Shown here: piece after piece, positions 9,229 to 25,926 of the stretch
Position numbering within the stretch: position 1 is the stretch's first letter
Layout of the letters: every line of letters starts with the position of its first letter
Source: Opitutus sp. GAS368
GTDB taxonomy: Bacteria; Verrucomicrobiota; Verrucomicrobiia; Opitutales; Opitutaceae
DNA length: 64,000 bases
Assembly (NCBI RefSeq): GCF_900104925.1
Contig: NZ_LT629735.1
Coordinates: forward strand, 776,291-840,290
Reading direction: 5' to 3'
Notes under the pieces: generated by a model
Told to the model about the DNA's origin: nothing
The model's input: the letters and a program-made list of their open reading frames with translations, nothing else
Database searches by the model: none
Program-made: the position numbers and the translations under genes

Positions 9229-9484
9229 GCCCGTGAATCCGGCGGAGCACGGAGTTCTCGGGACAAACACCGGGCTGGCAGAAGCCAGCAACGGTGTAAC
9301 CCTCGCCATCAGCGCCGCCAGCGCGAAGCGCGGCAAGGCGGCTGGCGAAGAACTCAGGACATGCACCGGGTGGCCAGCAGGCCACAACGGTGTAGCCCCA
9401 TGCTGGCAGATTAGCCGCAGCGAAGGGCTGCGCGACTGATCCCGGGCGCCCAGCAGGGCGCAACAGGAAGCCAGCAACGGTGTA
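9229..9484. repeat. Structured repeat array: three modules with covarying hairpins
   Basis: Module hairpins are at 9268-9296, 9364-9392 and 9441-9467. Each reads outer stem (CACCG/CGGTG, or TCCCG/CAGGA in the third), spacer GG on the left and CAA on the right, a five-base inner stem, and a loop AGAA or AGCA. The inner stems differ but stay paired: CTGGC/GCCAG, TGGCC/GGCCA, CGCCC/GGGCG. An upstream constant part reads GCCCGTGAATCCGGCGG and later CTCGGGACAAACACCGGG. A preceding GAAGG-loop hairpin (GCAGC/GCTGC) also varies between copies. A truncated module follows at 9468-9484. No protein is predicted. Confidence 0.8.
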
Positions 9485-9602
9485 AACACCCAAAGCTTTT
9501 ACACGAAGGCCGCAAAGAACGCAGAGATATTTCCCATCGCAGGATCTGCTTCGCGGTCTTGGCGACCTTGGTGTAGAGTGTAGTAGCTTGAGGCGATTGG
9601 CC
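9482..9602 (-). repeat. Dispersed 128-bp element (copy)
   Basis: Copy of the TTATACCAA-ended element in reverse orientation (CACCCAAAGCTTTTACACGA ... CTTGGTGTAGAGTGTAGTAG). Other copies are at 1855/2269, 17983, 27461, 29558, 32349 and 46128. The usual flank CCCGACCTACATCAAACTGA follows. Confidence 0.85.
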
Positions 9603-9628
9603 TAAAGCCCGACCTACATCAAACTGAC

Positions 9629-9789
9629 CCACCCCGTCGCTCCGCGCCATCGGCCGTCGCCGGGCCCATGGCCGACAGGCCCCTCTCCAGAAGGGAGTAT
9701 CGGCCGGCGTTGGTTTGGGTCCCCTCTGGAGAGGGGTGCCCGCCAGGGCGGGGTGTGTCGCCCGGGGCGTCCTCTACCTGACGGAGGAG
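9629..9789 (-). repeat. Left-truncated copy of the TA-flanked MITE
   Basis: Matches the reverse complement of the MITE at 32113-32268: CGTCGCTCCGCGCC, GCCGGCGTTGGTTTGG, CCCCTCTGGAGAGGGGTGCC, GGGCGGGGTGTGTCGC and the end TACCTGACGGAGGAGTG followed by ATA. Its left end is missing and fused to the flank of the 128-bp element, and it carries an extra 30 bases near 9647-9676. Confidence 0.7.
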
Positions 9790-9833
9790 TGATAAACGCT
9801 TGTCAGGCCGCTTGGGCGGCGGAAGATTTCCCC

Positions 9834-10355
9834 ATGCGCCTGCGTCTTTTCTGCCTGGGTCTGCTTCTCGCCGCCGTCGCCGGCCCGGCCTGGTCGGCCG
9901 GATTTCTCGAAAGCCTGAGCCCGGAGCAGAAGAAGCAGATGGGACTGGACGGGCTCACCGCCGCCCAGGCGGCCGCCGTCAACGACGCGGTGGCGCACTA
10001 CCAGGCCGGCAACGTCGCCGCGCTCACGCAGCAGGCCGCCGCCACCGCCGTCGCCGACTACAAGGCGAAGCAGGAACCGGTCGTGGTGGCTCACGCCGTG
10101 AATGTCGCCCGGCAAAGGCAGGCGGAGGAGAATCAGGAACGGGTCGCCTGCCACATCCGCGGCTCCTTTAACGGCTGGTCGGGCGGCACGCTCTTCACCA
10201 TGGACAACGGGCAGGTCTGGCAGCAGACGGGCAGCGAGGTCTATTACACCCCGCCGGTCGACGACGCGATCGTCGAGGTGCGCAAGGCCTCCAGCGGCTA
10301 CCACCGCCTGTATCTGTCGGACGGCCGCTGGATCACGGTGAAGCGCGTGCGCTGA
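9834..10355 (+). CDS. Hypothetical secreted protein
   Basis: Not recognised. 173 residues from the ATG at 9834; the frame is open further upstream, but this start gives a clean signal peptide (RLRLFCLGLLLAAVAGPAWSA). The mature part begins with a helical region (SLSPEQKKQMGLDGLTAAQAAAVNDAVAHYQ), then a Lys/Gln/Glu-rich stretch (about residues 80-110) and a beta-rich tail with FNGWSGGTLFTMDNGQVWQQT and RWITVKRVR, an arrangement seen in small periplasmic proteins of unknown role. It sits isolated between repeat arrays. Confidence 0.7.
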   Translation: MRLRLFCLGLLLAAVAGPAWSAGFLESLSPEQKKQMGLDGLTAAQAAAVNDAVAHYQAGNVAALTQQAAATAVADYKAKQEPVVVAHAVNVARQRQAEENQERVACHIRGSFNGWSGGTLFTMDNGQVWQQTGSEVYYTPPVDDAIVEVRKASSGYHRLYLSDGRWITVKRVR

Positions 10356-10357
10356 TT

Positions 10358-10555
10358 TGCCCGTGAATCCGGCGTAGCGCGGAGTGCTCGGGACATTCGC
10401 CCCGGCGCAGGCCGGTGGACGAACCCCGTGATGCCAGCAGGCATCAACAGGGCACACCGGGCCCGTAGCTCAGCCGCGACGAAGGTCGCGCGACTGATCC
10501 CGGGCGCCCAGCAGGGCGCAACAGGAAGCGGGCAACGGCGGCCCGTGAATCCGGT
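10358..10555. repeat. Second structured repeat array with covarying hairpins
   Basis: Begins with the constant GCCCGTGAATCCGGCG as at 9229. Hairpins are at 10424-10452 (outer CCCCG/CAGGG, spacer TG and CAA, inner ATGCC/GGCAT, loop AGCA) and 10498-10526 (outer TCCCG/CAGGA, inner CGCCC/GGGCG, loop AGCA). A GAAG-loop hairpin before the second one (GCGAC/GTCGC) corresponds to GCAGC/GCTGC in the first array. The rest of the 10356-10743 gap shows no gene; a partial constant segment recurs at 10539-10555. Confidence 0.78.
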
Positions 10556-10743
10556 GCAGGGTCGGCGCTTGGCCTGTCCTTCATAGCCTTGGTGACGGAG
10601 GATCGTCGGACCTGATTTCGCCATGAGCCCCGGCCCGGCGACAAGCACCGGCCCTACAGTCTACAGCAAACACTCTGCGCTCTCCGCGCCTGCCAGCCAT
10701 AGGCCCGGCGAAGGCTGGACCTCTGTATTGAAACCACCCTGGC

Positions 10744-11430
10744 TCAGGCCTTCGGCGGGCCGCCAAAATGGGCTTTATGGGCGGCATAACCCGCCAGATC
10801 CGAAAGCATCGACTCGATCGTGGCCGCCAGCGGCTCGATCTTCACCATGCCGGAGAACACCGCCTTGTCGCCGATCTCGCTCGTGAGGATGAACGCCGGG
10901 CGCTGGTCGATCTGGTGCGCGAAGAACTCCGCCGTGCTGGCCTGGATCCGCGCGGCCACCTCGGCCGACTCGGCCCGGGCGCGCAATTTTTTGCCGTCGA
11001 GCTCTTGCCGCGCCGAAGCCTGGCGAAGGCGGGTGGTCGCCTTCACCGCCACCTTGATCGCCGCGTCCATCGAGGCGACCTTGAGGCCGTCGCGGTCCGC
11101 CGCGTGGGCCAGCGCCAGCCGCAGCTCGTCGCCGGTGAGCCCGAAATCCTTGCCCGCCTCCGCCACGTAGCTGGCGGCGGGGAACAGCCCCTCGCGCCAC
11201 GGCTCCAGCCAGCCCGAGTTCAGCATGAAGGGCGACTTCATCATCAGGCCGCTGCGGCGGTAGAACCAGTCGCACTGCTCGCGCGAGACCGGGTAGTCCT
11301 CCCGGCGCATCAGCGCGATCTTCCACTCGAAGTCCACGCGGCCGGCGTAGCGGCGCTGCAGCTCGGCCCAGGTCGGCTCGACCCAGTAGCACCACGATGA
11401 AATGACCTCGAGATAGTAGGTGACTTTCAT
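10744..11430 (-). CDS. DsbA-family thioredoxin-fold protein (FrnE/HCCA isomerase-like)
   Basis: 228 residues. The N-terminus MKVTYYLEVISSWCYWVEP aligns with the start of the DsbA/FrnE/2-hydroxychromene-2-carboxylate isomerase group, where the first strand is followed by a CxxC or SxxC-type active site. Here only one Cys is present (SSWCYW), so it lacks a dithiol pair and is more likely a glutathione-dependent isomerase-type or degenerate member. An inserted helical domain (about residues 60-170) and the cis-Pro strand (QRPAFILTSEIGDKAVFSG, about 180-200) follow. No signal peptide, so cytoplasmic. The substrate is unknown. Confidence 0.75.
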   Translation of the reverse strand: MKVTYYLEVISSWCYWVEPTWAELQRRYAGRVDFEWKIALMRREDYPVSREQCDWFYRRSGLMMKSPFMLNSGWLEPWREGLFPAASYVAEAGKDFGLTGDELRLALAHAADRDGLKVASMDAAIKVAVKATTRLRQASARQELDGKKLRARAESAEVAARIQASTAEFFAHQIDQRPAFILTSEIGDKAVFSGMVKIEPLAATIESMLSDLAGYAAHKAHFGGPPKA

Positions 11431-11518
11431 GCCGCGAGGCTCGCGGCATCCCGGCGGTGCGTCAATTGCTCAGCGCGGCACTCCGCACACAGCACCACGC
11501 AACCCGGGCCAAGACAGT

Positions 11519-11827
11519 TTAAACCACGGAAAACACCGACGGCGGCTTTGCGTAGATGGCGAAGCCATACACCGAAGGAATTCTTACAGGAGGAAACGGA
11601 GGTAACCGAGGTTGGTTTGAGTGTTCTCTGTTATCTCCGTTAACTCCTGTGCAAGGGTTGGTCCTGTTTCCGTGTGTTCTGTGTATTCCGTGGTGAATCC
11701 TCAGCCCTCTTTGCCGGGCGACTGGCCCGGACAAACACCGGGTTGGCAGCAGCCAACAACGGCGAGGTCTCAGGTCTCAGGTTTCAGGTTTCAGGTTTCA
11801 GGTTTCCTGAGCGGCGGTCTCCGCCGC
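11519..11827. repeat. Mixed repeats: AACCACGGAA-type inverted pair, one structured hairpin and a CAGGTTT tandem
   Basis: 11519-11695 begins TTAAACCACGGAAAACACCG and ends with the inverse (TCTGTGTATTCCGTGGTGAA). 11711-11764 is a copy of the structured repeat: first hairpin CCGGGC/GCCCGG, then outer CACCG/CGGCG with inner TTGGC/GCCAA and loop AGCA (11736-11764). 11767-11806 is a tandem of a seven-base TCAGGTT-like unit. The 11431-11827 gap holds no gene that I can support. Confidence 0.75.
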
Positions 11828-12568
11828 TCACGGCTTCTTCTTGAAGAGATCCTGCAGCGCCTGGCCGGCTTTCTGCGCGGCCTCCTTGGTCTTTTCGAGC
11901 GAGGCGGCGCCGGCCGTGCCGCCGACCTTGCTGAGCGCGTTGGCCGTGCCGCTGACGATGCTCGTCAGCACGTGCTTCATCAGCGCGCTGGCGAGCTGGT
12001 CGGCCGTGATGCCGCCCTCCGCCACGCCGAGGTCGTCGACGCTGATGGGCGGCAGCGGCACCGGCAGCGCGGCGGCGCCCACGCCGAGCGTGGCCTTGCC
12101 GTTGGTCACACGGAATTTCTTCACGACAAACTTGATCGGCTGGCCGCTCTTGGTCGCCGGCGCCTTGCCCCCGCCGCCCGTGAACTGGTCGATGTTCTTC
12201 AGCAGGTCCTTGATGTTGCTGGTGACAAACTTCGTCTCGTAGGTGAACTCCGGCTGGTCGATGGTGATCTCGTCGATGACCACGTGGTCGCCGAAGATCG
12301 ACCATGGCTGCACGGCCACGTGGACCGTGCCGAGGTAGAAGGCCCGGCCCTCGGTCCAGCCCTTGGGGTTGTCGACCGCCAGGCCGCTGAGCGTGCCCGA
12401 GCCGGTCAGCGGCGAGATGCTCGCCCCGGCCAGCTCCACCTTCGTCTGGGTCAGTTGCGGTCCGAAGTTGTTCACGCCGGCCTTGACGATGGAGCCCAGG
12501 AAAAAAGCCAGGACGACATAGAGGCCGACGGCGGCGAGCAGACCGATGAGGAGGATTTTTTTGAGCAT
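11828..12568 (-). CDS. AsmA-like / DUF748-type envelope protein
   Basis: 246 residues. One N-terminal membrane anchor (KILLIGLLAAVGLYVVLAFFLG, residues 4-25) is followed by a periplasmic region in the style of AsmA/DUF748 proteins: GTLSGLAVDNPKGW (about 58-71), then VIDEITIDQPEFTYE (about 97-111), the usual rhythm of short beta-segments. The end is a coiled helical tail rich in Ala, Lys and Gln (EKTKEAAQKAGQALQDLFKKKP). It is much shorter than classical AsmA. A role in outer-membrane lipid or protein assembly is a family-level guess. Confidence 0.65.
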   Translation of the reverse strand: MLKKILLIGLLAAVGLYVVLAFFLGSIVKAGVNNFGPQLTQTKVELAGASISPLTGSGTLSGLAVDNPKGWTEGRAFYLGTVHVAVQPWSIFGDHVVIDEITIDQPEFTYETKFVTSNIKDLLKNIDQFTGGGGKAPATKSGQPIKFVVKKFRVTNGKATLGVGAAALPVPLPPISVDDLGVAEGGITADQLASALMKHVLTSIVSGTANALSKVGGTAGAASLEKTKEAAQKAGQALQDLFKKKP

Positions 12569-13032
12569 GGCAGGATTGGATTGACGGAATAGTGCCCGGT
12601 TCCCCGCCGGTCGGCAAGCCCCAGTCCGTGAAGAAATTGTTCAATGTTCATCGCTCAGCGTTCAATTTTCATTTCCCGACCCAATGAACAACGAACGACG
12701 AACATTGAAAAATGAACAATCCGTCCTCCACTGGCTCCTGTGCAAGGTCAGGTCCTGCTTCCGTGTGTTCTGTGTGTTCCGTGGCTAAAATCCTCGGGTC
12801 TCAGGTTTCAAGTCTCTCAATCGGTCGCCCGGCCCCTGTATTTACACTTGTCACACCGCGTTGCCGCCCCTCTCTATTCCGCCAACAAGCCCTTTGCCCC
12901 GGCTTGCCGGGGACAAGTTCTCCAGAGCCCGGTCTTTCACCTTTCAACTTCAACCCGGCGCCGACTTTTCAGGTCTCAGGTTTCAAGTTTCAGGTCTCTT
13001 CCTTCCTCCTTCTTCCTTCTTAATTCAAACCC
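12569..13032. repeat. Repeat-filled gap upstream of parE
   Basis: 12641-12722 is an inverted pair around AATGTTCA/TGAACATTG. 12726-12790 repeats the GTGTGTTCCGTGG unit of 11670-11695. 12797-12812 and 12968-12997 are CAGGTTT tandems. 12889-12920 has a half copy of the structured repeat: TTTGC, stem CCCCGGC/GCCGGGG, then GACAA. No gene is evident, and no clear ribosome-binding site precedes the parE start at 13033. Confidence 0.65.
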
Positions 13033-14874
13033 ATGGCCCAAGCCTACACCGAAGCCAGCATCAAGACCCTCAGCTCCCTCGAGCACATCCGGCTCCGCCC
13101 CGGCATGTATATCGGCCGGCTCGGCAACGGCGCCCACGCCGAGGACGGCATCTACGTCCTGCTCAAGGAGACCATCGATAACTCCATCGACGAATTCATG
13201 ATGGGCGGCGGCCGCAAGATCGAGGTCGAGCTCACCGACCGCTCCGTCAAGGTCCGCGACTACGGCCGCGGCATCCCGCTGGGCAAGCTCGTGGACTGCG
13301 TCTCCATCATCAACACCGGCGCCAAATACGACTCCGAAACCTTCCAGAAGGCCGTCGGCCTCAACGGCGTCGGCCAGAAGGCCGTCAACGCCCTCTCCCT
13401 CACCTACCGCGCCCAGGCCGTCCGCGACGGTGAGACCAAGGTCGTCGAGTTCGAGAAGGGCAAGCTCAAGACCCAGTCGCGCGTCACCAAGACCGAGGAG
13501 CGCACCGGCACCATCATCGAGTTCACGCCCGACGAGAAACTCTTCGGCTCCGACTTCAAGTTCCGCACCGAGTTCATCGAGGACATGCTGTGGAACTACG
13601 CCTTCCTCAACCGCGGCCTCACCCTCACGCTCAACGGCAAGCCCTTCAAGTCGGAGAACGGCCTGAAGGACCTCCTCACCAAGGAGCTCTCCGGCGAGCC
13701 GCTCTACCCGATCATCCACCTCGAGGGCGAGGACATCGAGATCGCCCTCACCCACGGCAAGCACTACGGCGAGGAATACTGGTCCTTCGTCAACGGCCAG
13801 CACACCACCATGGGCGGCACCCACCTCGCCGCCTTCCGCGAGGCCCTCGTCGAGACCCTCCGCAACCACTTCAAGAAGGACTTCGACGCCGCCGACGTCC
13901 GCCAGTCGATCGACGCCGCCATCGTCGTCCGCGTGCAGGAGCCCGTCTTCGAGTCGCAGACCAAGACCAAGCTCGGTTCCGCCGACCTCGGCCCCAAGGG
14001 CCCCTCGATCAAGGAATTCGTCGGCAAGTTCATGCAGCAGTCGCTCGACACGTATCTCCACAAGAACCGCGAGACGGCCGAGATCATCAAGGCGAAGATC
14101 GAGGAGAACGAGCACGAGCGCAAGGAGCTCGCCGGCATCCGCAACATCGCCCGCGAGCGCGCCAAGAAGGCCTCCCTCCACAACCGCAAGCTCCGCGACT
14201 GCCGCCTCCACCTCGGCGACCGCAACGAGCGCGCCGAGGAATCCACCCTCTTCATCGTCGAGGGCGACTCCGCCGCCGGCTCCCTCACCGCCACGCGCGA
14301 CGTCCAGACCCAGGCCGTCTTCGCCCTCAAGGGCAAGCCGCTCAACACCTACGGCCTGACCAAGAAGGTCATCTACGAGAACGAGGAGTTCCACCTCCTC
14401 CAGGCCGCCCTCAACATCGAGGACGGCATGGACGGCCTGCGCTACAACCGCATCGTCATCGCCACCGACGCCGACGTGGACGGCATGCACATCCGCCTGC
14501 TGCTGCTCTCGTTCTTCCTGCAGTTCTTCCCCGACGTCATCCGCCAGGGCCACCTCTTCATCCTGCAGACGCCCCTCTTCCGCGTCCGCAACAAGAAGAT
14601 CACGCGCTACTGTTACTCCGAGTCGGAGAAGCAGGCCGCCGTCGCCGAGTGCGGCGCCACGCACGAGATCACGCGCTTCAAGGGCCTCGGCGAGATCAGC
14701 GCCGGCGAGTTCAAGGACTTCATCGGCGAGAACATCCGCCTCGACCCGGTGAACCTGCACCACCTCTACAGCTCCGACGAGCTCCTGAGCTTCTTCATGG
14801 GCAAGAACACCCCCGAGCGCCAGGACTTCATCATCGACAACCTGAGAGTCGAAAAAGATTTGGTCGAAGTGTGA
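13033..14874 (+). CDS. parE: DNA topoisomerase IV subunit B
   Basis: 613 residues. The GHKL ATPase region is intact: [14 protein letters not shown] (about residues 47-60), [13 protein letters not shown] (about 74-86) and [14 protein letters not shown] (about 111-124). The TOPRIM domain shows [12 protein letters not shown] (about 413-424) and metal-binding DADVDGMH (about 478-485), then [13 protein letters not shown] (about 550-562). The length and the GDSAAGS form resemble the Bacteroidota-like ParE branch rather than GyrB. With the parC product downstream it should form the A2B2 decatenase. The start is the first Met of [28 protein letters not shown]. Confidence 0.95.
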
Positions 14875-14924
14875 GTTTTGGCACCCTAATCTCCACTAAT
14901 CCCTCACTAATCTATTCTTCATCT

Positions 14925-15014
14925 CTGTCATTCTGAGCGAAGCGAAGAATCCAGTATGATGTGCGCCAACGGTTGTGCTGCTGGATCCTTCACTTCGCTC
15001 AGGATGACAATCCA
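14925..15014. repeat. GTCATTCTGAGCGAAGCGAAG palindromic repeat between parE and parC
   Basis: Starts GTCATTCTGAGCGAAGCGAA and ends with the inverse CTTCGCTCAGGATGACA. Relatives are at 26532-26642 and 52229-52316. A TTAGTGTGGATTAGTGGTTA-type segment follows at 15038-15059, a unit seen again near 25258, 30583 and 30683. Confidence 0.85.
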
Positions 15015-15105
15015 AACCCTTTCCGAAATTAGTGTCTTCTTAGTGTGGATTAGTGGTTAAAAAAATCGCTCTCTTCACTCTCTCTCACTTTCACTCTCCC
15101 AAGAA

Positions 15106-17319: not shown

Positions 17320-17401
17320 TCCATCTGAACATCCTCAGGTTTGCTCCGCCATCTCCGCGCCAGGCGCTCCGTCAGGTCTCGGGTTTCAGGTTTCTCTGCC
17401 T

Positions 17402-17464: not shown

Positions 17465-17511
17465 GGTAGGGCGCGGACTCCGCTCCGCGCTTTCCCTGAC
17501 GCCTCCCTTGG

Positions 17512-17959: not shown

Positions 17960-17982
17960 GTGAGGTGTAAACTGCATATTAT

Positions 17983-18105
17983 CCCAAACACCCAAAGCTC
18001 TTACACGAAGGCCGCAAAGAACGCAGAGATATTTCGCATCGCAGGATCTGCTTCGCGGCCTTGGCGACCTTGGTGTAGAGTGTAGTCGCTTGAGGCGATT
18101 GGTAT
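17983..18105 (-). repeat. Dispersed 128-bp element (copy)
   Basis: CCCAAACACCCAAAGC to GATTGGTATTG, reverse orientation. It forms the artificial C-terminal frame of the broken PIN toxin. Confidence 0.85.
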
Positions 18106-18145
18106 TGTCCCACCCCTTAACCGCCCAACAAAAAGGCAGGATCCC

Positions 18146-18886
18146 ATGGCTAAAAAAACCTCCACCCCCACCCTCGACCGCCACCCGGTCGTATCCCGCA
18201 AAAAATGGCTCGCCGCACGCACCCGCCTGCTGACGAAGGAAAAGGCATTCACCCACGCCCGCGAACGGCTCGCCGCGGAACGCCGCGCCCTGCCCTGGGT
18301 CAAGATCGACAAGGAGTATGTGTTCGAGGGTCCGAAGGGCCGCGAGACGCTGGCCGACCTGTTCGCGGGGAGAAGCCAGCTGGTCATCTATCACTTCATG
18401 TTCGGCCCCCGCGAAAAAGCCGGCTGCGCCCACTGCTCCTTCTGGGCGGACAGCTTCGATCCCATCATCCGGCATCTCAACCAACGCGACGTGACGATGC
18501 TCGCGGTGTCGCGCGCGCCGCTGAAAAAGCTGGCGCGGTTCAAAGCCCGCATGGGCTGGAGCTTCAAGTGGGTCTCGTCGCACGGATCGGATTTCAACTA
18601 CGATTTCCATGTCTCGTTCCCGGAGGCCGCAGTCCGGAGCGGGAAGCAATTCTACAATTACCGCCTGGGGCCGGCCTTTTGCGCCGACCGCGAGGGCGTG
18701 AGCGCCTTTTACAAGAACAGCCGGGGGGAGATCTTTCACACCTATTCCTGTTTCGCGCGAGGCATCGACATGATGAACACCGCCTACCAATACCTCGACC
18801 TCGTGCCCAAGGGCCGCGACGAGGATCCGGACATGGCCCAATCATGGGTGGACTATCACGACAAATACCGCTCCACGCTGCCATGA
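18146..18886 (+). CDS. DUF899 family thioredoxin-like protein
   Basis: 246 residues. DUF899 features: HPVVSRKKWLAARTRLLTKEKAFTHARERLAAERRALPWVK at the N-terminus, YVFEGPKGRETLADLF (about 58-73), LVIYHFMFGPREKAGCAHCSFWADSF (about 79-104) with the thioredoxin-like Cys pair CAHC, and a C-terminal VSAFYKNSRGEIFHTYSCFARG. The family is thought to be redox-active but lacks a defined role. The start follows an AGGCAGG-like ribosome-binding site. A diverged copy of its last 24 codons lies at 21694-21768. Confidence 0.9.
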   Translation: MAKKTSTPTLDRHPVVSRKKWLAARTRLLTKEKAFTHARERLAAERRALPWVKIDKEYVFEGPKGRETLADLFAGRSQLVIYHFMFGPREKAGCAHCSFWADSFDPIIRHLNQRDVTMLAVSRAPLKKLARFKARMGWSFKWVSSHGSDFNYDFHVSFPEAAVRSGKQFYNYRLGPAFCADREGVSAFYKNSRGEIFHTYSCFARGIDMMNTAYQYLDLVPKGRDEDPDMAQSWVDYHDKYRSTLP

Positions 18887-18995
18887 TAGGCCGAAGCCCG
18901 TCCATGCTGCAGCGCGGCAGCTTGAAGCGAAGGCGGGGCCATTCAGTCCATCATCTTCTCTCAAAAGCTCTTGAAACACCCCGTCGGTCCCGGGC

Positions 18996-20501
18996 TCAGC
19001 TGACCGGCTGACGCTGAAGATCCGGGGCGGCGGATTTTTCCCCCGCCCCATCCAGCTGGGCCGCGGCGAGCCGGCCGATCAGCCGCAGCGCGGACTGGAT
19101 GCGATCCGACCACGGGGAGGAGGTGTTGAGTCGGATGCAATGGTTGAAGCGCGGTTGCGCCGAGAACAGGATGCCCGGTGCAATGCTGACCTTTTTTTGC
19201 AACGCCTCATGGTAGAGCCGCACCGTGTCCACCGCCGCGGGAAACTGCACCCACAGGACGTAGCCGCCATCCGGCTGGGTCAGGCGGGTGCCGGGCGGGC
19301 AATGGCGCCGGAGGTTTTCCGAGTAGAGCCGCAGGTGCTGTTGATAGGTCCGGCGCAGACTGCGGAGGTGATGATCATAGCCGCCGATCCGGAGGAAATC
19401 GGTGATGGTTTTTTGCAGGACCAGCGGGGTTCCCATGGTGTTGGCCATTTTCAACCGGCGCACGGGTTCGAGGTAACGGCCGGGGGCGCACCAACCGACC
19501 CGGAAACCGGGGACCAGCGTCTTCGCGAACGAGCCGCACAACAGCACCCGCCCATCGGTATCCCACGCCTTCAGTGGTCGCGGACATTGCGCGCCAAAAT
19601 GCAGCTCGGTGTAAACGTCGTCCTCCACCGCGGGGATATCGAACTCCTGCAGCAGGGCGTAGAGCCTGGCTTTGTGGGCGTCGCTCAGGCTGCAACCGAG
19701 CGGATTCTGGTAGTTGGGCATCACGAACAACGCCGTGATTTTCCGGGCGACCAGGGCGGCGCGCAGTTCCTCGAGCTGGAGCCCCTCGCGCGGACAGGCG
19801 GGGATTTCCAGCACGCGGACCCCGAGGCTTTGCAGGATCTGCATGAGCCCGAAGGACACCGGCGTCTCCATGGCCACGGTGTCACCCGGCTTCGTCACCG
19901 CCCGGATGGAGAGATTCAGCGCCTCGGTGCAGCCAACGGTGATCAGCACCTCGGCGTGGGACAGGGCGACACCGGCATGCACGTAGCGGCGGGCGATTTC
20001 GCGGGCGAGCGGCTCAAAGCCCCAGTTTACGGTCGAGCGGGCGAGCGAGTCGGGGTCATCGCGAATGATCGACGCCATCATCCGGGCGATCCGCCGGTTG
20101 GGAAAGATCGCGGCATCGGGCGTGCTCCATCCGAACGCGACATTCGCCGGCAGGGCGGAGCTGGTCATCACCTCCGCCGCGAGATCGCTCACCCCCACAT
20201 AACTGGGCCGGGCCATGGGGCGGGCCATCTGGGGCAGCGGGTATTCCACGCCGGAACGGGGCCGGATATAAAACCCTGACTGGGAACGCACCTCCACCTC
20301 GCCCAGGTTTTCCAGGCTGGCATAGGCCTTGACCACCGTGCCTGTGCTTACCCCGCGCTGCCGGGCCATCTGGCGGACCGATGGCAGCTTTTCCCCCGGC
20401 CGCAACGTGCCCTCCGCGATGAAACGCCGCACGGATTCCGCCAGTGTGCGATAGGTGGTGTTCTGGCGTTGGATCGGCACCGCAGGCATGGGCATGCGCA
20501 T
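18996..20501 (-). CDS. MocR-type regulator (GntR winged helix plus aminotransferase domain)
   Basis: 501 residues. The N-terminal GntR helix-turn-helix covers about residues 15-80 (RRFIAEGTLRPGEKLPSVRQMARQRGVSTGTVVKAYASLENLGEV). A fold-type I PLP-dependent aminotransferase domain follows, with GCTEALNLSIRAV, NYQNPLGCSLS and the PLP-binding Lys in CGSFAKTLVPGFRVGW. Most such proteins control vitamin B6 or amino-acid genes on their own divergent promoter. A small unrelated gene lies divergently at 20655. The frame is intact and codon use matches the host. A catalytic aminotransferase role cannot be excluded. Confidence 0.93.
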   Translation of the reverse strand: MRMPMPAVPIQRQNTTYRTLAESVRRFIAEGTLRPGEKLPSVRQMARQRGVSTGTVVKAYASLENLGEVEVRSQSGFYIRPRSGVEYPLPQMARPMARPSYVGVSDLAAEVMTSSALPANVAFGWSTPDAAIFPNRRIARMMASIIRDDPDSLARSTVNWGFEPLAREIARRYVHAGVALSHAEVLITVGCTEALNLSIRAVTKPGDTVAMETPVSFGLMQILQSLGVRVLEIPACPREGLQLEELRAALVARKITALFVMPNYQNPLGCSLSDAHKARLYALLQEFDIPAVEDDVYTELHFGAQCPRPLKAWDTDGRVLLCGSFAKTLVPGFRVGWCAPGRYLEPVRRLKMANTMGTPLVLQKTITDFLRIGGYDHHLRSLRRTYQQHLRLYSENLRRHCPPGTRLTQPDGGYVLWVQFPAAVDTVRLYHEALQKKVSIAPGILFSAQPRFNHCIRLNTSSPWSDRIQSALRLIGRLAAAQLDGAGEKSAAPDLQRQPVS

Positions 20502-20654
20502 CGGGCGCGTCAGGCAGTTTAACGCCCCCGCCCGGCCTGGCGATCCTATTCACTGGAACCACTTGCACCGGCCGGCTGGCACAGTTCGCCGATCAGGTCC
20601 GTGACACAGCCGGCTAAAAGTGGCCGCGGCCTGCTCTGCATGCACCGTGCGGGT

Positions 20655-20984
20655 ATGAACAACCAACCCTCCCCCGCGGCGCAAAACCCCGATGAACCCG
20701 GTCGCCCGGCTTGTTATTGGGAGAAATATGACGATTTCCTCAAACAGTGTGGTGATGAGCAGCTCTGGTCGATGCTGCGGGAAATCCAGGGCCGACTGGG
20801 CACCCGGATGGAAAAACCACGCGACCTGGAGCATGTCCGGGCCATCACGCATCGCCTGAACAATATCCTGACAGCCATCTCGATGAAAAATGATCTGGCG
20901 CAGCTGAAGGCTTGGGCAGCCAATTCCCGGCCGCTGCAATGCAACCGCCCCGACGGTCAGATGCAATCAGGCTGCGGAGATTGA
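20655..20984 (+). CDS. Small hypothetical protein
   Basis: 109 residues from the ATG at 20655. Not recognised. It contains a helical segment DLEHVRAITHRLNNILTAISMKNDLAQLK, whose HRLNNILTAI core resembles the dimerisation/H-box helix of some histidine kinases, but no kinase domain follows. It is divergent from the MocR-type gene and may share its control region. The end runs into a parC-derived fragment. Confidence 0.5.
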   Translation: MNNQPSPAAQNPDEPGRPACYWEKYDDFLKQCGDEQLWSMLREIQGRLGTRMEKPRDLEHVRAITHRLNNILTAISMKNDLAQLKAWAANSRPLQCNRPDGQMQSGCGD

Positions 20985-21004
20985 TGCGTGCCAGGCGAAC
21001 CCGC

Positions 21005-21130
21005 GCCCGCATCCGCGAACTCGATTTCGACCTGACCTCAATTTCTGTCAGCACTCGCACATCCAAAGGCCTGAACGTCACCAGATGGTCCGTTAAGGAA
21101 GTGAAACCCAATGACCTCGAACTCAAATAA
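21005..21130 (+). pseudogene. parC 3'-end fragment 2
   Basis: Encodes ARIRELDFDLTSISVSTRTS, then KGLNVTRWSVKEVKPNDLELK and TAA. It aligns with the last 42 residues of the live parC (ARVREFDFDLTPVPVSTRTS...) with about ten changes, so it derives from a more distant parC. It is the longest of the fragments and has an intact stop. A CAGGTTT tandem repeat follows at once (21122-21155), as also occurs next to fragment 1. Confidence 0.88.
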
Positions 21131-21211
21131 CCTCAGGTTTCAGGTCTCAGGTCTCCGGTTTCTCTGCCTGGGCCTCACCGCTTGCCTCGTCGAAGCCTTG
21201 TGCGGAGACGG

Positions 21212-21264
21212 GTCACCAAATGGTCCATCAAGAGGTCAAACGCAACGACCTCACCCTAAAGTAG
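21212..21264 (+). pseudogene. parC 3'-end fragment 3 (frameshifted)
   Basis: GTCACCAAATGGTCCATCAA then, after loss of two bases, GAGGTCAAACGCAACGACCT and CACCCTAAAGTAG. Restoring the bases gives VTKWSIKEVKRNDLTLK and a stop, a further variant of the parC end. Confidence 0.8.
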
Positions 21265-21271
21265 GCGTTAT

Positions 21272-21432
21272 CCTGATAGATCGAGCAAGCCAGCGCAATC
21301 ATTGGGACAAACTTCAAGACCGTGTTGAGCGAGACGCCACACATGCGAGTAGTGGCACGCATCGAGCAACCCTCAACGAGGTATTGCACCACCCGGATTC
21401 GCTTTTCTGTAGAGGGGATGTTTTGCCATGGC
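21272..21432 (-). pseudogene. IS1-like transposase, N-terminal remnant
   Basis: The minus strand reads STEKRIRVVQYLVEGCSMR, then ATTRMCGVSLNTVLKFVPMI and ALACS. This is the helix-turn-helix start of IS1-type transposases (pattern EKR..VL..L.EG.S.R...R..GVS..TV.K). The start codon would need a frame change at ATGGCAAAAC (about 21428), and the catalytic part is missing. It is evidence of past insertion-sequence activity beside the parC fragments. Confidence 0.65.
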
Positions 21433-21499
21433 CGTTATTGGATTGACTAAATGTAATACAGAATACCTGATTCATCGCAAGAGCTTTTCGTATTACAAT

Positions 21500-21673
21500 A
21501 TGTCCAAGAAATCCAAGAAGGGTCGGCCCAAGCTTCCAAAGGGGGCGGCGAAGACGCCTTTTCCAATCCGTTTCTCAGAAATCGAGCTGGTCGCGTTTGA
21601 ACGAAAGGCTGTGGCCCAAGGGCTGACCGTGAGGGCGTGGATTACTGCAATGTTGAATGAGGCGGCGAAATGA
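21500..21673 (+). CDS. Small ribbon-helix-helix-like protein
   Basis: 57 residues from the ATG at 21500. A basic Lys-rich head (SKKSKKGRPKLPKGAAK) is followed by TPFPIRFSEIELVAFERKAVAQGLTVRAWITAMLNEAAK, with the strand-helix-helix pattern of CopG/Arc-type DNA-binding proteins or antitoxins. No toxin follows; a DUF899 fragment does. Lower GC than its neighbours. Possibly a cargo or control gene of a lost element. Confidence 0.6.
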   Translation: MSKKSKKGRPKLPKGAAKTPFPIRFSEIELVAFERKAVAQGLTVRAWITAMLNEAAK

Positions 21674-21693
21674 TCAGAAGCTAAGGGTGAAGC

Positions 21694-21768
21694 GGCCGCG
21701 ACGAGAATCCGGACATGGCGCAATCCTGGGTGGACTATCACGACAAATATCGCTCTACGCTTCCGTGA
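21694..21768 (+). pseudogene. DUF899 gene 3'-end fragment
   Basis: Encodes GRDENPDMAQSWVDYHDKYR, STLP and a TGA stop. It matches the last 24 codons of the DUF899 gene at 18812-18886 with 7 base differences in 75, six of them silent. The close match and silent bias suggest an allele from a related genome rather than local slippage. Confidence 0.88.
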
Positions 21769-21840
21769 CCTGCCCAAGTCCAACCCGCCGCCTTGTCGCG
21801 CCAGAGCTCTAGCGACGGCGGAAGCCTCGCGCGAAGGCGG

Positions 21841-21897
21841 GTCTCCACCCGCACTTCAAAGGGTCTGACCGTCACCAAATGGTCCATAAAGGAAGTT
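21841..21897 (+). pseudogene. parC 3'-end fragment 4, at the breakpoint of a defence gene
   Basis: Encodes VSTRTSKGLTVTKWSIKEV and then stops matching. It is preceded by the TTGTCGCGCCAGAGCT repeat shared with 17911-17957. On the other strand this fragment supplies the false C-terminus of the dCTP-deaminase-like remnant, so the break in that gene lies exactly at the edge of a parC-derived segment. Confidence 0.82.
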
Positions 21898-22454
21898 ATA
21901 CCCCGCTGCTTTAGCCGTTCTTCACGAGCTTCTGGTGAAGAATAAACACCAATGCAGATAAAAAGATCTCCATAAACAGCTTTGAATGCATTCAGTTCAT
22001 CCTGGTTTTTGATTGAATCGATTATATGGCAAAATCGTTCGGGTTGAAATTCGCTGCCTCCGCTAACTTTCAACTTTTGATCTCGCCTGATCGAAATCTC
22101 TGCAATCGCTAGTTCAGCAAGAACTGAGTTCCCATAGGTGCCTTTGATCCGATTACCTTCAGAAATGAGCGTATGGTAGCGACTATAAATCGATGCTTTG
22201 TTGATGGGAGATTCCGCATATTTTTCAATATACGTGCTCAGTTTTGTCACATAACTTTGGTAGCTGTAATGCCCTTCTAACAGCGCCTTAAGTCGATTTG
22301 AAACCGCTTCCGTTGGGGCACCAACGGAACCACATAAACCAATCACGATTTCGTGTGTATGGGTGCTTCGAATCTGTAGGAGAAGGTCCTTTTCGTCTCC
22401 TGTCGGGAGGAGTTCTGCGGCCTGGCCTTGCGGTATTGGTTGGGATTGAGCCAT
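21898..22454 (-). pseudogene. Anti-phage dCTP-deaminase-type protein, N-terminal NTPase-like domain only
   Basis: About 185 residues from the ATG at 22454; a TTG at 22475 is an alternative start. It shows the N-terminal domain seen in AvcD/anti-phage dCTP deaminases: EIVIGLCGSVGAPTEAVSN (P-loop-like), then NRIKGTYGNSVLAELAIAEISIRRD, and later FKAVYGDLFICIGVYSSPEAREERLKQRG. The zinc-binding deaminase domain that should follow is absent; the frame instead enters the antisense of parC fragment 4. Low GC relative to the host suggests transfer. Family assignment is from memory of the family, not a search. Confidence 0.7.
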
Positions 22455-22467
22455 AGGGTGATTCAAA

Positions 22468-22487
22468 GATGCCAATTATTTGGCATC
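22468..22487. promoter_or_regulatory. Perfect palindrome upstream of the deaminase remnant
   Basis: GATGCCAA TTAT TTGGCATC, an 8-bp perfect inverted repeat starting 14 bases upstream of the ATG at 22454. It could be an operator or an RNA hairpin in the leader. The 22488-22732 stretch is AT-rich and shows no gene I can name; it may be the old leader of this gene. Confidence 0.45.
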
Positions 22488-22732
22488 GCGTGGCCCAACG
22501 CGTCTTTGTGGTTTTATCTCTAATATACCTCCGCCTGAACGCACGTCCAAAAAACCTTATGCGCCAGCTGAAGGGGAACTTGCCTATTACACTGCTAGAG
22601 GCGGAGGTGAAAGCTCCCTGTTTACCCACGCGTGGTTTAATAATCTTCCACGGAAACATATTTCCGACTTTTTACGGTTATCCTACTTTTTGACTCTTGA
22701 CTTACTTTTTAGCAGACGCCTGATTTCAGGTC

Positions 22733-22978
22733 ATGAATGCTACTTCAACCACCGAAACGGTTCAGTTCACCACCAAGGGCCAGGTGGTGATCCCTGCGAA
22801 ACTTCGCAAGGAATTCGGAATTGAGGACGGCACGAAGGCGTCGGTCACCAAGACTCCCGAAGGCATCCTCCTCCGGCCCATCACCCGCTCTTACATCAAG
22901 AGCCTGCGCGGTTCCCTCAAAGGCTGCGGCGTTATGAAGTCCATGATGGCAGATCGCAAACACGAGAGGGCCCTCTGA
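22733..22978 (+). CDS. vapB: AbrB/SpoVT-type antitoxin (VapB)
   Basis: 81 residues. FTTKGQVVIPAKLRKEFGIEDGTKASVTKTPEGILLRPI (residues about 12-50) is a canonical swapped-hairpin AbrB DNA-binding domain. The C-terminal tail (about 55-81) would wrap the toxin. The PIN toxin gene begins two bases after this stop, so they are co-transcribed, and the pair should repress its own promoter. Confidence 0.92.
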   Translation: MNATSTTETVQFTTKGQVVIPAKLRKEFGIEDGTKASVTKTPEGILLRPITRSYIKSLRGSLKGCGVMKSMMADRKHERAL

Positions 22979-22979
22979 C

Positions 22980-23390
22980 ATGGCCAATCGTGTTCTAGAC
23001 AGCTGGGCGTTGATGGCCTTCTTCGAGGATGAATCTGCGGCGGAAGCCGTAGAAGAGCTCCTCGACCAAGCAAGCCGGGGAAAACACAAGCTCTTCCTGA
23101 CGTCCATCAACTGGGCTGAAGTCTACTACAGCACGATGCGAGAAACTTCGCAGGATGTCGCCGAGCAACACGCACAGATCATCGCCAGCCTGCCCATCGA
23201 AATCGTTGGTATCGGCGACGACCTCAAACTCGCCCGTCAAGCCGCTATCTACAAGGCCACCTACCGCCTAAGCCTAGCTGATGCCTTCGCCGCTGCCTTG
23301 GCCAAGGAAAAGAAGGCCGAGCTGGTGACCGGAGATCAAGAATTCAAGGCCCTCGATAAGGAAATTAAAATGCTGTGGCTCACCCACTAG
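22980..23390 (+). CDS. vapC: PIN-domain ribonuclease toxin (VapC)
   Basis: 136 residues. PIN acidic residues are visible: RVLDSWALMAFFEDE (first Asp), the Glu in INWAEVYYS (about residue 44), and SLADAFAAALAKEKKAELVTGDQEFKAL with the distal Asps. Full length, no disruption. The family cleaves specific RNAs (often tRNA or rRNA) when not held by VapB. Confidence 0.93.
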   Translation: MANRVLDSWALMAFFEDESAAEAVEELLDQASRGKHKLFLTSINWAEVYYSTMRETSQDVAEQHAQIIASLPIEIVGIGDDLKLARQAAIYKATYRLSLADAFAAALAKEKKAELVTGDQEFKALDKEIKMLWLTH

Positions 23391-23429
23391 ATTCACCCAA
23401 ACGAGCATGTAACGCTTAACATTGACCCT

Positions 23430-24221
23430 ATGAGTAAGCCCCAATGGCAATTTAACGATCGGCGCAGAAAAGATCCTATTCGTGATCCAATTCAAGGGGA
23501 ATTCTTCGCAAATGAAGCAATCAAAAATCCTGAAGAGGCACTGATCAGAGAAGGGATTCAAAATTCTCTAGACGCGGCCCTCAAAGATGGAGATCAGAAC
23601 CCCGTCCAAATACGCGTGTTTCTCGCGACTAATGGGGCCGCCGCCTCTTCGAAAAGCGTCAAACAATTCATGATCGGAGCTTGGGATCATTTCAGCGCGA
23701 AAGGAAACGGCATAAAACATCCTCCTTCATCTGATGCGGTCTGCCCTTTCCTTGTTTTCGAAGACTTTGGAACCTGCGGACTAAACGGAGATGTGAATCA
23801 GTCCGAAGAAGAAAAGGGCAATTTGTTCTTTTACTTCTTTCGTGCTGAAGGTCGTTCGGAAAAACTTGGCGATAAACGCGGGCGATGGGGCGTTGGCAAA
23901 CATGTGTTCCCAAGTGCTAGCCAAGTTAATTCCGTATTCGGCCTAACTGTTCGCTCTGCCGATGGAGAGCGCTATTTGATGGGGCGATCCGTTCTAAAAT
24001 GCCATTCAGTTGGTGAAGAAGATTTCATGCCCGATGGATATTTTGGACTAGCAGATGAAGACGGCTTTACGGGGCCGGTTAGCGATTCTGCCATTATAGA
24101 TGATTTTTGCTCGAGTTTTGGGGTCACGCGCAAAAAGGAGACCGGCCTCACAATTGTGATGCCGTGGATCAACCCTGATTTCTCGGCCGGACAGTTAGTA
24201 TCAGCGGTATTGCGCGGATAG
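23430..24221 (+). pseudogene. MORC/MutL-like GHKL ATPase of a restriction-type defence operon, truncated
   Basis: 263 residues. GHKL motifs: IREGIQNSLDA (about 39-49, Mg-binding Asn), VFEDFGTCGLNGD (about 109-121) and GRWGVGKHVFPSASQV (about 151-166). The head MSKPQWQFNDRRRKDPIRDPIQGEFF is typical of the prokaryotic MORC-like ATPases found beside Dcm, Vsr and Z1 helicase genes. Those proteins are usually much longer. This one loses its C-terminal part at about 24200, where the sequence turns directly into the end of a Dcm gene. AT-rich codon use relative to the host supports transfer. Confidence 0.8.
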
Positions 24222-24460
24222 CCAACCGCCCGTCCACGACCGTGGTCTCACATATCTCGAAGGACGGTCACTACTTCATCCACTACGACCCGGCGCAGTG
24301 CCGGAGTCTGACTGTGCGCGAAGCCGCCCGCCTACAAACCTTCCCGGACAACTACCTCTTCGAAGGCCCGCGCACCGAGCAATACAAGCAGGTCGGCAAT
24401 GCCGTCCCTCCCCTGCTCGCCAAGCAAATCGCAAAGATAGTCGCGGAATTACTTGACTGA
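24203..24460 (+). pseudogene. DNA (cytosine-5) methyltransferase, C-terminal remnant
   Basis: A frame different from the ATPase ORF reads [21 protein letters not shown], then [32 protein letters not shown] and [20 protein letters not shown]. These are C5-methylase motif IX ([16 protein letters not shown]) and motif X (QVGNAVPP). Motifs I-VIII, including the PC catalytic site, are gone. The fusion point with the MORC-like gene implies a deletion that removed the end of one and the start of the other. Confidence 0.88.
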
Positions 24461-24461
24461 T

Positions 24462-24734
24462 TTAGTCTGCTGGTTCGGCAGCTCCGGTCTTTCGAGCACT
24501 CCAACGCTTGGACTTCTCGTCCTGAACCAGAACTTGTTCGGCAGCGAGTAAACCCAAGAGCGTTCGGCTTACATGACCTTCGTGACCGACATGCCCTTGA
24601 TAGATTCCAAGCTTACGTCCGATTTCGGCATTTGTTAGTCCCTCAGGCGAGCTAGCGACGAGTTCGTAAACCGCACCTTTAAGCTCAGCCATTGCCCGTT
24701 GAGCTCGAGTATAGAGCGAAGTTTCCATGGCCAT
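24462..24734 (-). CDS. Small winged-helix protein beside vsr
   Basis: 90 residues. LKGAVYELVASSPEGLTNAEIGRKLGI (about 18-44) and HVSRTLLGLLAAEQVLVQDEKSKRWSARK (about 54-82) have the helix-turn-helix plus wing pattern of MarR/ArsR-like small proteins. Convergent with the Dcm remnant and divergent from vsr. Small winged-helix genes of this kind accompany some Dcm/Vsr systems. Role unknown. Confidence 0.65.
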   Translation of the reverse strand: MAMETSLYTRAQRAMAELKGAVYELVASSPEGLTNAEIGRKLGIYQGHVGHEGHVSRTLLGLLAAEQVLVQDEKSKRWSARKTGAAEPAD

Positions 24735-24787
24735 GTTGTAACTGATTGAAACCCTCCCGCAAGGCTGGTCATCCTACCTGCCGGGCC

Positions 24788-25261
24788 ATGGCAGACATAT
24801 TTTCAAAGACTAAGCGCTCTGATGTGATGTCCCGCATCCGAGGAACTAAGAACAAGGGCACCGAGCTGCGGCTGATCCAGGTTTTCCGGGTGAATGGCAT
24901 CACGGGCTGGCGACGGGGCTGTTCGCTGTCGCTCAGGGTTTCAGGTCTCAAGTCTCAGGTTTCAGGTCTCGCAGGCCACCGCTCCACGGGCCGAGTCCGC
25001 CCCGACTTCATATTCCCCCGGCTCCGTGTGGCCGTCTTCGTCGACGGTTGTTTCTGGCACGGCTGCCCCAGGCACGCCACATGGCCGAGGACCCGGGCGA
25101 GCTTCTGGAAAGCCAAGATCGAGGGCAACCGCACACGGGACCGGCTGGTCGGCCGTGAGCTTCGCCGGTCCGGCTGGCGTGTGATCCGCATTTGGGAGCA
25201 TGAATTGGCTAAGCGCAATTCGCCACGGCTTTTCCGCCGGCTTTCCGTGCTCCAAAATTAG
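24788..25261 (+). CDS. vsr: Very short patch repair (Vsr) endonuclease with an internal repeat insertion
   Basis: 157 residues from the ATG at 24788 (MADIFSKTKRSDVMSRIRGTKNKGTE). The catalytic core is present: RVRPDFIFPRLRVAVFVDGCFWHGCPRHAT (Asp of the PDF motif and the GCFWHGC zinc/catalytic motif), WRVIRIWEHEL at the end. Between GWRRGC (about residue 43) and TGRVRPDF (about 66) lies an extra stretch LRVSGLKSQVSGLAG encoded by a CAGGTTT-type tandem (24932-24972), in frame. Vsr nicks T:G mismatches made by deamination at Dcm sites; its partner methylase is only a remnant here. Activity with the insertion is uncertain. Confidence 0.85.
   Translation: MADIFSKTKRSDVMSRIRGTKNKGTELRLIQVFRVNGITGWRRGCSLSLRVSGLKSQVSGLAGHRSTGRVRPDFIFPRLRVAVFVDGCFWHGCPRHATWPRTRASFWKAKIEGNRTRDRLVGRELRRSGWRVIRIWEHELAKRNSPRLFRRLSVLQN
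24932..24972. repeat. CAGGTTT tandem inside vsr
   Basis: TCAGGGTTTCAGGTCTCAAG then TCTCAGGTTTCAGGTCTCGC, the same tandem found in intergenic DNA at 11767, 12968, 17370, 21122, 25770 and 30531. Here it encodes about residues 49-62 of Vsr. Confidence 0.85.
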
Positions 25262-25440
25262 TGCCGATTAGCGTTCATTAGTGGTTAAAAAGTTTTCCTG
25301 TCTCCTTTGCGTCTCCGCGCCTCTGCGCCTCTGCGCCTCTGCGTGAGACCATCCCTGCCTGCCCAGCCTATTGGCCAAAAAAAAAGCCGTTTGTTCCAAA
25401 ATGGAACACTTTGCAGGTCTGGATCTGGTATGGTTGCCAC
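25262..25440. repeat. TTAGTG-type and CTCTGCGCC-type repeats
   Basis: 25258-25290 carries GTGCCGATTAGCGTTCATTA then GTGGTTAAAA. 25298-25345 carries three tandem copies of CCTCTGCG within TTTGCGTCTCCGCGCCTCTG. The same pair occurs at 30583-30660 and, in part, at 31365-31392. No gene. Confidence 0.7.
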
Positions 25441-25926
25441 ATGAAAACTTCGTGTTCCTTGGAGGGCCATCGCATCCTGATTCTGGCAGGCGAATATGGC
25501 GGCGAGGAAGGCATCTGCCTTGGCAGGGTTGCCGGCATCAATCGTTGGGCTGTCTCGCCTGATTCCTCGGCGGCCATTCTCGAGCTCCACTTCGAGAGTG
25601 AATTCGCGCTGCTCTTGAATCTGTCCGCTGCCCCTTCTCGGCTCGGAACCGACCCGGCCCGCCTTCGCGCCCTTCGTATGCCCGTGAATCCGGCGGAGCG
25701 CGGAGTTCTCGGGACAAACACCGGGCCCACAGCAGCGGGCAACGGTGCGCGTTTGCTTGAGCCAATCCTCAGGTCTCAGGTTTGCTCCGCCATCTCCGCG
25801 CCAGGCGCTCCGTCAGGTCTCAGGTTTCCAATCCCCGCCCCAGACACGCCACCCAGCCCAAGATCAGCCTTCGCCAACGCTTCGGCCCGACAAGCCAACG
25901 CCAAGTTCTGGCGCGAGTTGGTTTGA
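25441..25926 (+). CDS. Small KOW-like protein whose frame runs into repeats
   Basis: The first about 72 residues look like a real small protein: GHRILILAGEYGGEEGICLGRVAG resembles a KOW-type turn, followed by VSPDSSAAILELHFESEFALLLNLS. From about 25680 the frame is made of the structured repeat (PVNPAERGVLGTNTG) and CAGGTTT tandems, so the native stop is probably lost. Function unknown. Confidence 0.45.
   Translation: MKTSCSLEGHRILILAGEYGGEEGICLGRVAGINRWAVSPDSSAAILELHFESEFALLLNLSAAPSRLGTDPARLRALRMPVNPAERGVLGTNTGPTAAGNGARLLEPILRSQVCSAISAPGAPSGLRFPIPAPDTPPSPRSAFANASARQANAKFWRELV
25680..25747. repeat. Structured repeat, single module
   Basis: Constant GCCCGTGAATCCGGCGGAGC and CTCGGGACAAACACCGGG as at 9229; hairpin 25719-25747 with outer CACCG/CGGTG, inner CCCAC/GCGGG (one A-C mismatch), loop AGCA. 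CAGGTTT tandems follow at 25770-25783 and 25816-25829; the rest of the gap to 25982 shows no gene. Confidence 0.8.

Follow-up and report, generated by a model that had tools for sequence, protein, structure and literature searches.

A double-hairpin palindrome dispersed through Opitutaceae genomes, probably a non-autonomous mobile element with in-frame copies in genes

Introduction

The closest described counterparts of the element treated here, a palindromic unit of two hairpins dispersed in a 64,000-nucleotide stretch of Opitutus sp. GAS368 (contig NZ_LT629735.1, positions 776,291 to 840,290; this whole stretch, called the window, lies within a single-contig genome of 4.15 Mb), are small palindromic repeats of other bacteria and of mitochondria. 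Double-hairpin elements occur in fungal mitochondria, and O. terrae is a species that we take to belong to the same bacterial family as the host of the element. According to the reports cited in this paragraph, Rickettsia palindromic elements (RPEs) are short palindromic mobile repeats which sit in frame in unrelated genes, are translated, and also occur between genes (PMC2229807, PMC10969869). The intragenic repetitive extragenic palindromes (REPs) of O. terrae are palindromes inside genes, including uvrA, with alternative complementary stem letters (PMC3733652). The yeast mitochondrial GC42 is a small mobile hairpin of constrained structure whose units merge and shuffle (PMC4478555), and the bacterial miniature inverted-repeat transposable elements (MITEs) Correia, ERIC, and RUP are small and non-autonomous, some being fused in frame to genes (PMC2229807).

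The element of the window is best read as a mobile, non-autonomous coding palindrome of a new family, which works like RPEs or intragenic REPs but is untagged and built of two hairpins.

Structure of the unit and covariation of its stems

A first-pass annotation of the window had noted seven hairpins with a nearly constant loop and an inner stem that changed from place to place. The covariance model R1, built from 23 typed copies including those of the window, detects exactly these seven at E ≤ 0.01 and no others (model starts 9261, 9357, 9433, 10417, 10491, 11729, and 25712). They are the second half (H2, starting at 9268, 9364, 9440, 10424, 10498, 11736, and 25719) of a double-hairpin unit of 54–106 nt, whose first half is termed H1. 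The layout of H1 is NNNG-CC(stem)-loop-(stem)GGA-CNNN, with the initial NNNG pairing with the terminal CNNN, and H2 follows directly as NNCCGGG-(5 bp)-AGCA-(5 bp)-CAACRGNN. In 93 of 124 parsed copies H1 starts with TTTG, the others having TCCG, TCTG, TTCG, TCAG, TGCG, and more, and its length falls into a short (≈ 25–28 nt) and a long class (35–67 nt). GGAC, the AGCA loop, the A in front of CNNN, and the asymmetric bulge GG/CAA hardly vary; the stems turn over, and H1 and H2 combine freely, such that the H1 arm TTTGCCGGGC is found with eight different H2 stems. Each end of the element pairs inside its own hairpin, and no terminal inverted repeats join both ends. A terminal GTAG or CGTC tetranucleotide was not found, the ends being NNNG... 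and ...CRGNN with untagged flanking positions. Both hairpins form in all five folded sequences, one of them an antisense strand, with z scores of −3.9 to −5.8.

Several details of the first-pass annotation had to be adjusted. The outer stem that it gave as mostly CACCG/CGGTG holds for the copies at 9268, 9364, 11736, and 25719 (CGGTG or CGGCG) and fails for the remaining three, which have TCCCG/CAGGA (9440, 10498) or CCCCG/CAGGG (10424); the outer stem varies too. Among the inner stems, described as paired, CCCAC/GCGGG at 25719 has one A·C mismatch. The second covarying hairpin seen upstream exists and is now identified as the H1 of nested TCAG-type copies, and the constant text GCCCGTGAATCCGGCGG, correctly perceived as linking the loci, is part of the long-form H1. 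In agreement with the earlier impression that the form has no named family, Rfam gave no match at gathering score in the window; on six further loci, at E ≤ 0.5, there was one chance-level match, outside the element.

A BLAST search by sequence alone with 9229–9299 gave, self-match included, 33 hits in the own genome at E ≤ 1. Among the 22 at E ≤ 1e-3, a recognisable H2 lies nearby in 19 (three of these loci are near-identical composites), with five inner pairs in 16 and four in three. Across the 146 H2 of standard length (six of 152 parsed copies, whose H2 is not 29 nt, were dropped), 45 distinct inner stems occur and 139 copies are fully paired, a proportion biased upward by the fact that the relatives' copies were the top (best 88 loci) of a list ranked by a model trained on paired copies; the sequence-only set, which serves as a check on this bias, agrees.

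The covariation score for the first 23 copies was 0.550 versus 0.139 after shuffling, with none of 500 shuffles as high. For alignment A4, i.e. 106 distinct two-hairpin rows with identical rows and those lacking H1 left out, it was 0.502 versus 0.145, slid partners reaching at most 0.095, and 437 cells were changed on both sides versus 135 in shuffles. Counting pairs that show a double change (16 versus 14.1) is uninformative for the 106 rows, 41 of 500 shuffles reaching as many. Because H1 was located by NNNG/CNNN complementarity, the pairing of its first four pairs in A4 is built in; these pairs are still included in the 106-row scores and were excluded from the following count. On a FastTree tree with Fitch changes, with same-branch co-change expressed as a fraction of the changes in the column that changes less often, the mean was 0.71 in 12 variable pairs versus 0.106 in 498 unpaired column pairs, and all 12 lay above the 95th percentile of the unpaired columns (0.33), on a tree that is rough with its 50 columns only. 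Loose pattern scans of the window, allowing 2–3 mismatches, gave no excess over shuffles (17 versus 15.8; 17 versus 18.6), the exact matches within them being the element copies. Composite copies were counted as separate matches.

It is well supported that the constraint acts on a folded form, either RNA or single-stranded DNA, since the 45 distinct inner stems are nevertheless paired, the sequence-only set agrees, and co-change on the tree is strong. The reading of the first-pass annotation, selection on such a structure, is supported in part, and the stems neither lack covariation in the larger set nor go back to a few fixed variants.

Orientation and reading frame

Flank and gene counts were made on 125 copies, 27 of the 152 with H1 unparsed or too long having been dropped. 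Gene calls made with the element in place, by codon usage as trained on the own genome, put 45 copies inside genes, 43 in sense and two in antisense orientation; between tandem genes there are 32 sense and nine antisense copies, and the others lie between divergent (17) or convergent genes (17) or have one neighbour missing (five). A separate frame test used the flanks alone. With both sides callable it returned 15 sense copies in frame, none out of frame, and two antisense copies; with one side callable, 34 sense and four antisense. Two copies had opposite strands on their sides, and 68 gave no call.

The frames to the left and right agree in 42 of the 43 sense in-gene copies (40 of 41 confident ones), and for this reason the in-gene copies are probably translated through, judging from sequence; on the same count, removal at the RNA level, intron-like or by bypass, is disfavoured. 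All three frames serve for the in-gene peptides, in 21, 11, and 10 copies. Any single frame, on both strands, is open in 83–95% of 116 distinct elements, and all six are open in 60% of elements compared to 36% of dinucleotide shuffles and 14% of flanks. With all frames mostly open on both strands, the sense orientation is not imposed simply by stop codons.

As a side observation, own-genome copies, hand-counted in clusters, run more often against the inferred leading strand (≈ 28 versus 10). Of 20 samples of the GC skew, most of those from 3.95 Mb to 1.3 Mb lie below zero and most of those from 1.75 to 3.7 Mb above it; the one at 2.05 Mb is among the exceptions.

Insertion sites and nesting

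For 12 own copies, the two flanks were joined and looked for in 38 genomes, and 11 sites were aligned with chosen relatives. The cleanest empty site is in the galactokinase gene: all six relatives are shorter by exactly the 54 nt of the element and show neither duplication nor loss. The element is missing from some or all relatives at the ten remaining sites, often alongside further insertions or deletions. At L050, L042, and L048 some relatives hold the element or a remnant, and at L042, in a methyltransferase gene, several species have unrelated tandem heptamer repeat text at its place. Host genes with Pfam assignments (nine) encode galactokinase, tRNA (uracil-5) methyltransferase, GH30, UvrA, an SNF2 helicase, PIG-L, a GTPase, a glucuronyl esterase, and DsbD.

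Target duplication was considered and rejected. A 7-bp signal (z 7.1; four of 124 perfect) sits mostly in period-7 repeat text with the heptamers AGGTCTC, TGTCCTC, and CAGCTCT; the rejection follows from this origin of the signal, from a second peak raised likewise at 14 bp (z 5.2), and from the clean galactokinase insertion. Such heptamer text (AGGTCTC/AGGTTTC, TGTCCTC, CGAAAAT) also stands in tandem at 11765–11799 of the window, beside many copies, and scattered through these genomes. Separately, three of the 125 copies (L069 and L083 in genome G003, L082 in G029) have long flanking duplications that look real and are rare: the 27–48 nt preceding the element (two bases off in L082) recur 26–43 nt after it. 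L069 and L082, from two genera, apparently lie at the same gene end.

Two further observations concern sites occupied in more than one genome. L050, L304, and L312 represent one orthologous site with the inner stems CCGGC/GCCGG, CCGGC/GTCGG, and ATTCC/GGAAT in three genomes, and L284 and L291 are unlike forms (75 nt, TGCG type; 54 nt, TCCG type) that occupy roughly corresponding positions in similar genes from two genomes.

Copies also sit within copies. Own-genome TCAG-type copies occupy H2 loops at or beside the junction between AGC and A (window 9411–9468 and 10470–10526, L064, L081), others lie between H1 and H2 (window 10396–10452, L060–L062, L079), and relatives additionally have copies in H1 loops (L119, L136, L156, L158). 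Element DNA amounts to ≈ 2.7 kb of the 4.15 Mb, for which random insertion predicts far below one nested case. The composites may, however, have been copied as units, L060–L062 being near-identical, and stem-breaking insertions would escape the R1 model.

The copies of the window are compiled in Table 1. Copy A is located behind the open reading frame 6237–9164 and folds with −38.4 kcal/mol (z −5.8), compared to z −4.1 for copy E and −3.95 for the nested copy at 10470. The H1 of copy B, upstream and ending in GGACATG, was not parsed and looks degenerate. Copy C occupies the H2 loop of a host copy, of which the arms ≈ 9400–9410 and 9469–9482 are left over. Composite D comprises a host H1 (10356–10395), the host H2 arms (10453–10469 and 10527–10538), and two nested copies. 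In copy F the first H1 pairs are imperfect (TATG/CAAA).

Table 1. Element copies and fragments in the window.
Feature	Position	Strand	Remarks
Copy A, complete, 71 nt	9226–9296	+	Long H1 9226–9267; H2 9268–9296, stem CTGGC/GCCAG, loop AGAA
Copy B, H2	9364–9392	+	Stem TGGCC/GGCCA
Copy C, nested, TCAG-type (here TTAG/CTGA)	9411–9468	+	R1 match; boundaries hand-read
Composite D	10356–10538	+	R1 matches; boundaries hand-read
Nested copy in D, between host H1 and H2	10396–10452	+	H1 TTCG/CGAA; H2 stem ATGCC/GGCAT
Nested copy in D, in host H2 loop between AGC and A	10470–10526	+	H1 TCAG/CTGA; H2 stem CGCCC/GGGCG
Solitary long-H1 fragment (GCCCGTGAATCCGG...), no H2	10541–10556	+	
Copy E, complete, 55 nt	11710–11764	+	Short H1; H2 stem TTGGC/GCCAA
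Copy F, 71 nt	25677–25747	+	Long H1; H2 stem CCCAC/GCGGG; start hand-read

Distribution and phage carriage

The own genome holds 45 R1 matches at E ≤ 0.01. Within the genus, which has described isolates as the title of one report indicates (PMC5303756), 19 of 21 genomes have matches (1 to 51 each). Outside it, matches occur in one of 16 genomes of other genera of the family and in none of 20 from other families of the order; over 20 genomes the matches add up to more than 400. Under stricter filters, 15 of 200 sampled Opitutaceae genomes, in five of 49 genera, have the element. A pattern scan of GTDB contigs found at least 120 stretches, whose titles name metagenome-assembled genomes (MAGs) of Opitutaceae, Opitutia, or Verrucomicrobia with one exception among the matches listed: L264, a 4.5 kb contig in a Devosia MAG with three model matches. 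Its two long open reading frames have no Pfam match, and the contig is possibly mis-binned.

In IMG/VR, ten element stretches were found on six contigs. Ten proteins from five of these were compared with PHROG; six match terminase, portal, head, or tail families and four match nothing. Each of the five contigs has at least one such structural or packaging match, and thus tailed-phage contigs carry the element, with six and three model matches in the examined parts of two of them. INPHARED phages and PLSDB plasmids, each searched by blastn with one element sequence, gave no match.

Search for a mobilising enzyme

Genes for Y1 (HUH) transposases are present in 16 of the 21 genomes of the genus, including the near-complete G000 (the own genome), G003, and G016. 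Across these genomes, drafts counted, the element's occurrence does not track that of Y1. One of the two strong, equal-scoring IS200-type copies of the own genome, at 3396105–3396467, stands in an element-rich stretch between copies at 3394774 and 3397076, the nearer ≈ 0.6 kb and the farther ≈ 1.3 kb away; the other has no element nearby and different hairpins at its ends. In 20 stretches taken from more than 80 listed Y1 matches, R1 found nothing below E 0.16, even with filters off. The REP-associated tyrosine transposase (RAYT) was considered as a mobiliser and is disfavoured, the examined RAYT genes carrying their own tagged hairpins and no element beside them. At L366, L381, L382, and L384, RAYT-like genes (MPDHVH/MPDHLH) with GTRG-tagged hairpins near both ends make up a REP system of their own within the genus. 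The own genome furthermore contains six equal-scoring copies of the IS110 family.

Origin of the element

The element is probably a non-autonomous mobile palindromic double hairpin, mobilised in trans as a folded single strand, whose in-frame survivors are seen in genes. In such a mechanism, a trans-acting enzyme would recognise the folded single strand by GGAC, the GG/CAA bulge, and the AGCA loop, with the stem letters free provided that the stems pair. The copy would enter transcribed DNA in single-stranded form (or RNA), frequently at a hairpin loop; insertions that keep the frame would persist in genes as ≈ 18–32 extra amino acids, and phages may ferry the element between species.

Several findings weigh against this explanation. 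No mobilising enzyme was found: among the neighbours of 261 loci there is no recurrent mobile gene and no full-length Y1-bearing relative. RVT_1 is absent from the own complete genome and present in four of 21 genomes of the genus (the search covering this one reverse transcriptase model); IS110, in ten of 21, is absent from G003 and G016; and Y1 is unmatched in five element-bearing genomes of the genus, all drafts. Mismatch types (35 G·T versus 42 A·C cells) do not single out the folding strand, several empty-site comparisons carry further insertions or deletions, and one in-gene copy (L054) has differing frames on its two sides. Moreover, at shared sites the element is more similar than its flanks in nine of ten cross-genome pairs from eight sites, three of the ten sharing one site (a within-genome pair and one with unlike elements, of 12 in total, were set aside); in the tenth pair, L050/L312, the element shows 80% and the flanks 81%. 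This similarity goes beyond what mobility alone explains and would be compatible with function in place or with gene conversion.

A bolder version has the element as a new class that moves as a folded single strand, made either of RNA or of the open non-template DNA strand, is recognised by shape (bulge, loop, GGAC) rather than by stem sequence, enters loops and transcribed targets almost only in sense, and relies on a candidate enzyme or its own catalysis; we regard it as unlikely. The raised similarity at shared sites would also be expected of a regulatory or mRNA-protecting RNA structure that spread once and was then kept by selection site by site, mobility being minor, and so would the sense bias relative to genes and the position of several intergenic copies directly after a TGA stop codon. 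However, 45 of 125 copies lie inside called genes, at places where many relatives are empty, the number of model matches varies from 0 to 51 per genome within one genus, nested copies and phage carriage fit mobility better, and the similarity itself could stem from gene conversion or repeated insertion, so that this explanation is distinctly unlikely. A mobile coding palindrome also fits better than a discrete small RNA, because the double hairpin is an insertion that occurs within genes, where it keeps the frame, and on phage contigs.

Template switching on quasi-palindromes, in which one arm is copied from the other during replication, is a known mutational process and would give paired stems without selection. 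The replacement of a whole stem at one orthologous site, CCGGC/GCCGG versus ATTCC/GGAAT in L050 and L312, speaks for it, but arm copying would tend to repair asymmetries such as the GG/CAA bulge, which is near-constant along with the A before CNNN and the AGCA loop, and H1 and H2 stems are freely combined; we give it little credence. Mobilisation by a Y1 transposase, through a RAYT as for the GTAG repeats of O. terrae or an IS200-type enzyme, keeps a very small probability, given that the Y1-negative genomes are drafts and that two elements flank one IS200-type copy, and the small hairpins, the missing target duplication, and intragenic REPs in the same bacterial family (PMC3733652) would suit it, whereas the untagged ends, the element-free surroundings of the Y1 stretches and of the other IS200 copy, and the several RAYTs with GTRG hairpins of their own do not.

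Mobile palindromes, the preferred explanation, would provide a case, besides Rickettsia and the tagged REPs, in which tiny elements lengthen housekeeping proteins by added peptides. The near-absolute sense orientation of the copies, like their nesting loop in loop, suggests single-strand or transcription-linked insertion, and how such elements move becomes directly testable. The copies in genes are, in addition, a natural experiment on protein sites that tolerate insertions of 18–32 residues.

Comparison with known systems

No earlier description of this double-hairpin element was found in the accessible literature, which covered few subscription papers. Group II introns and other retroelements differ in that they would call for a reverse transcriptase in the genome, RVT_1 having the distribution given above. 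The element shares the lack of target duplication and the subterminal hairpins at both ends with IS200/IS605-derived elements; in contrast to these, no full-length Y1 relative stands between the hairpins at any of the 261 loci or at the examined Y1 genes. MITEs are set apart by terminal inverted repeats joining their ends and by target duplication, neither of which applies here. With the GC clusters and double-hairpin elements of fungal mitochondria the element has in common that small mobile hairpins of constrained structure merge and shuffle, but it resides in a bacterial chromosome and in phage, in frame in genes, and with no target duplication seen.

The tagged REPs, as described (PMC3733652), are likewise palindromes inside genes, uvrA among them, with alternative complementary stem letters; the element differs by the missing terminal GTAG/CGTC, by the fixed order of its two hairpins, and by its absence beside the examined RAYT genes. 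RPEs are similar in their in-frame insertion into protein genes (here 42 of 43 frames agree and 43 of 45 copies are in sense, with translation predicted). They are described, however, as long stem-loops of ≈ 105–150 bp that are bounded by terminal inverted repeats and found in Rickettsia (PMC2229807, PMC10969869), and it is by these descriptions that the present element stands apart, with its 54–106 nt, its two independent covarying hairpins, its self-nesting, its phage carriage, and its home in the Opitutaceae, a family of another phylum.

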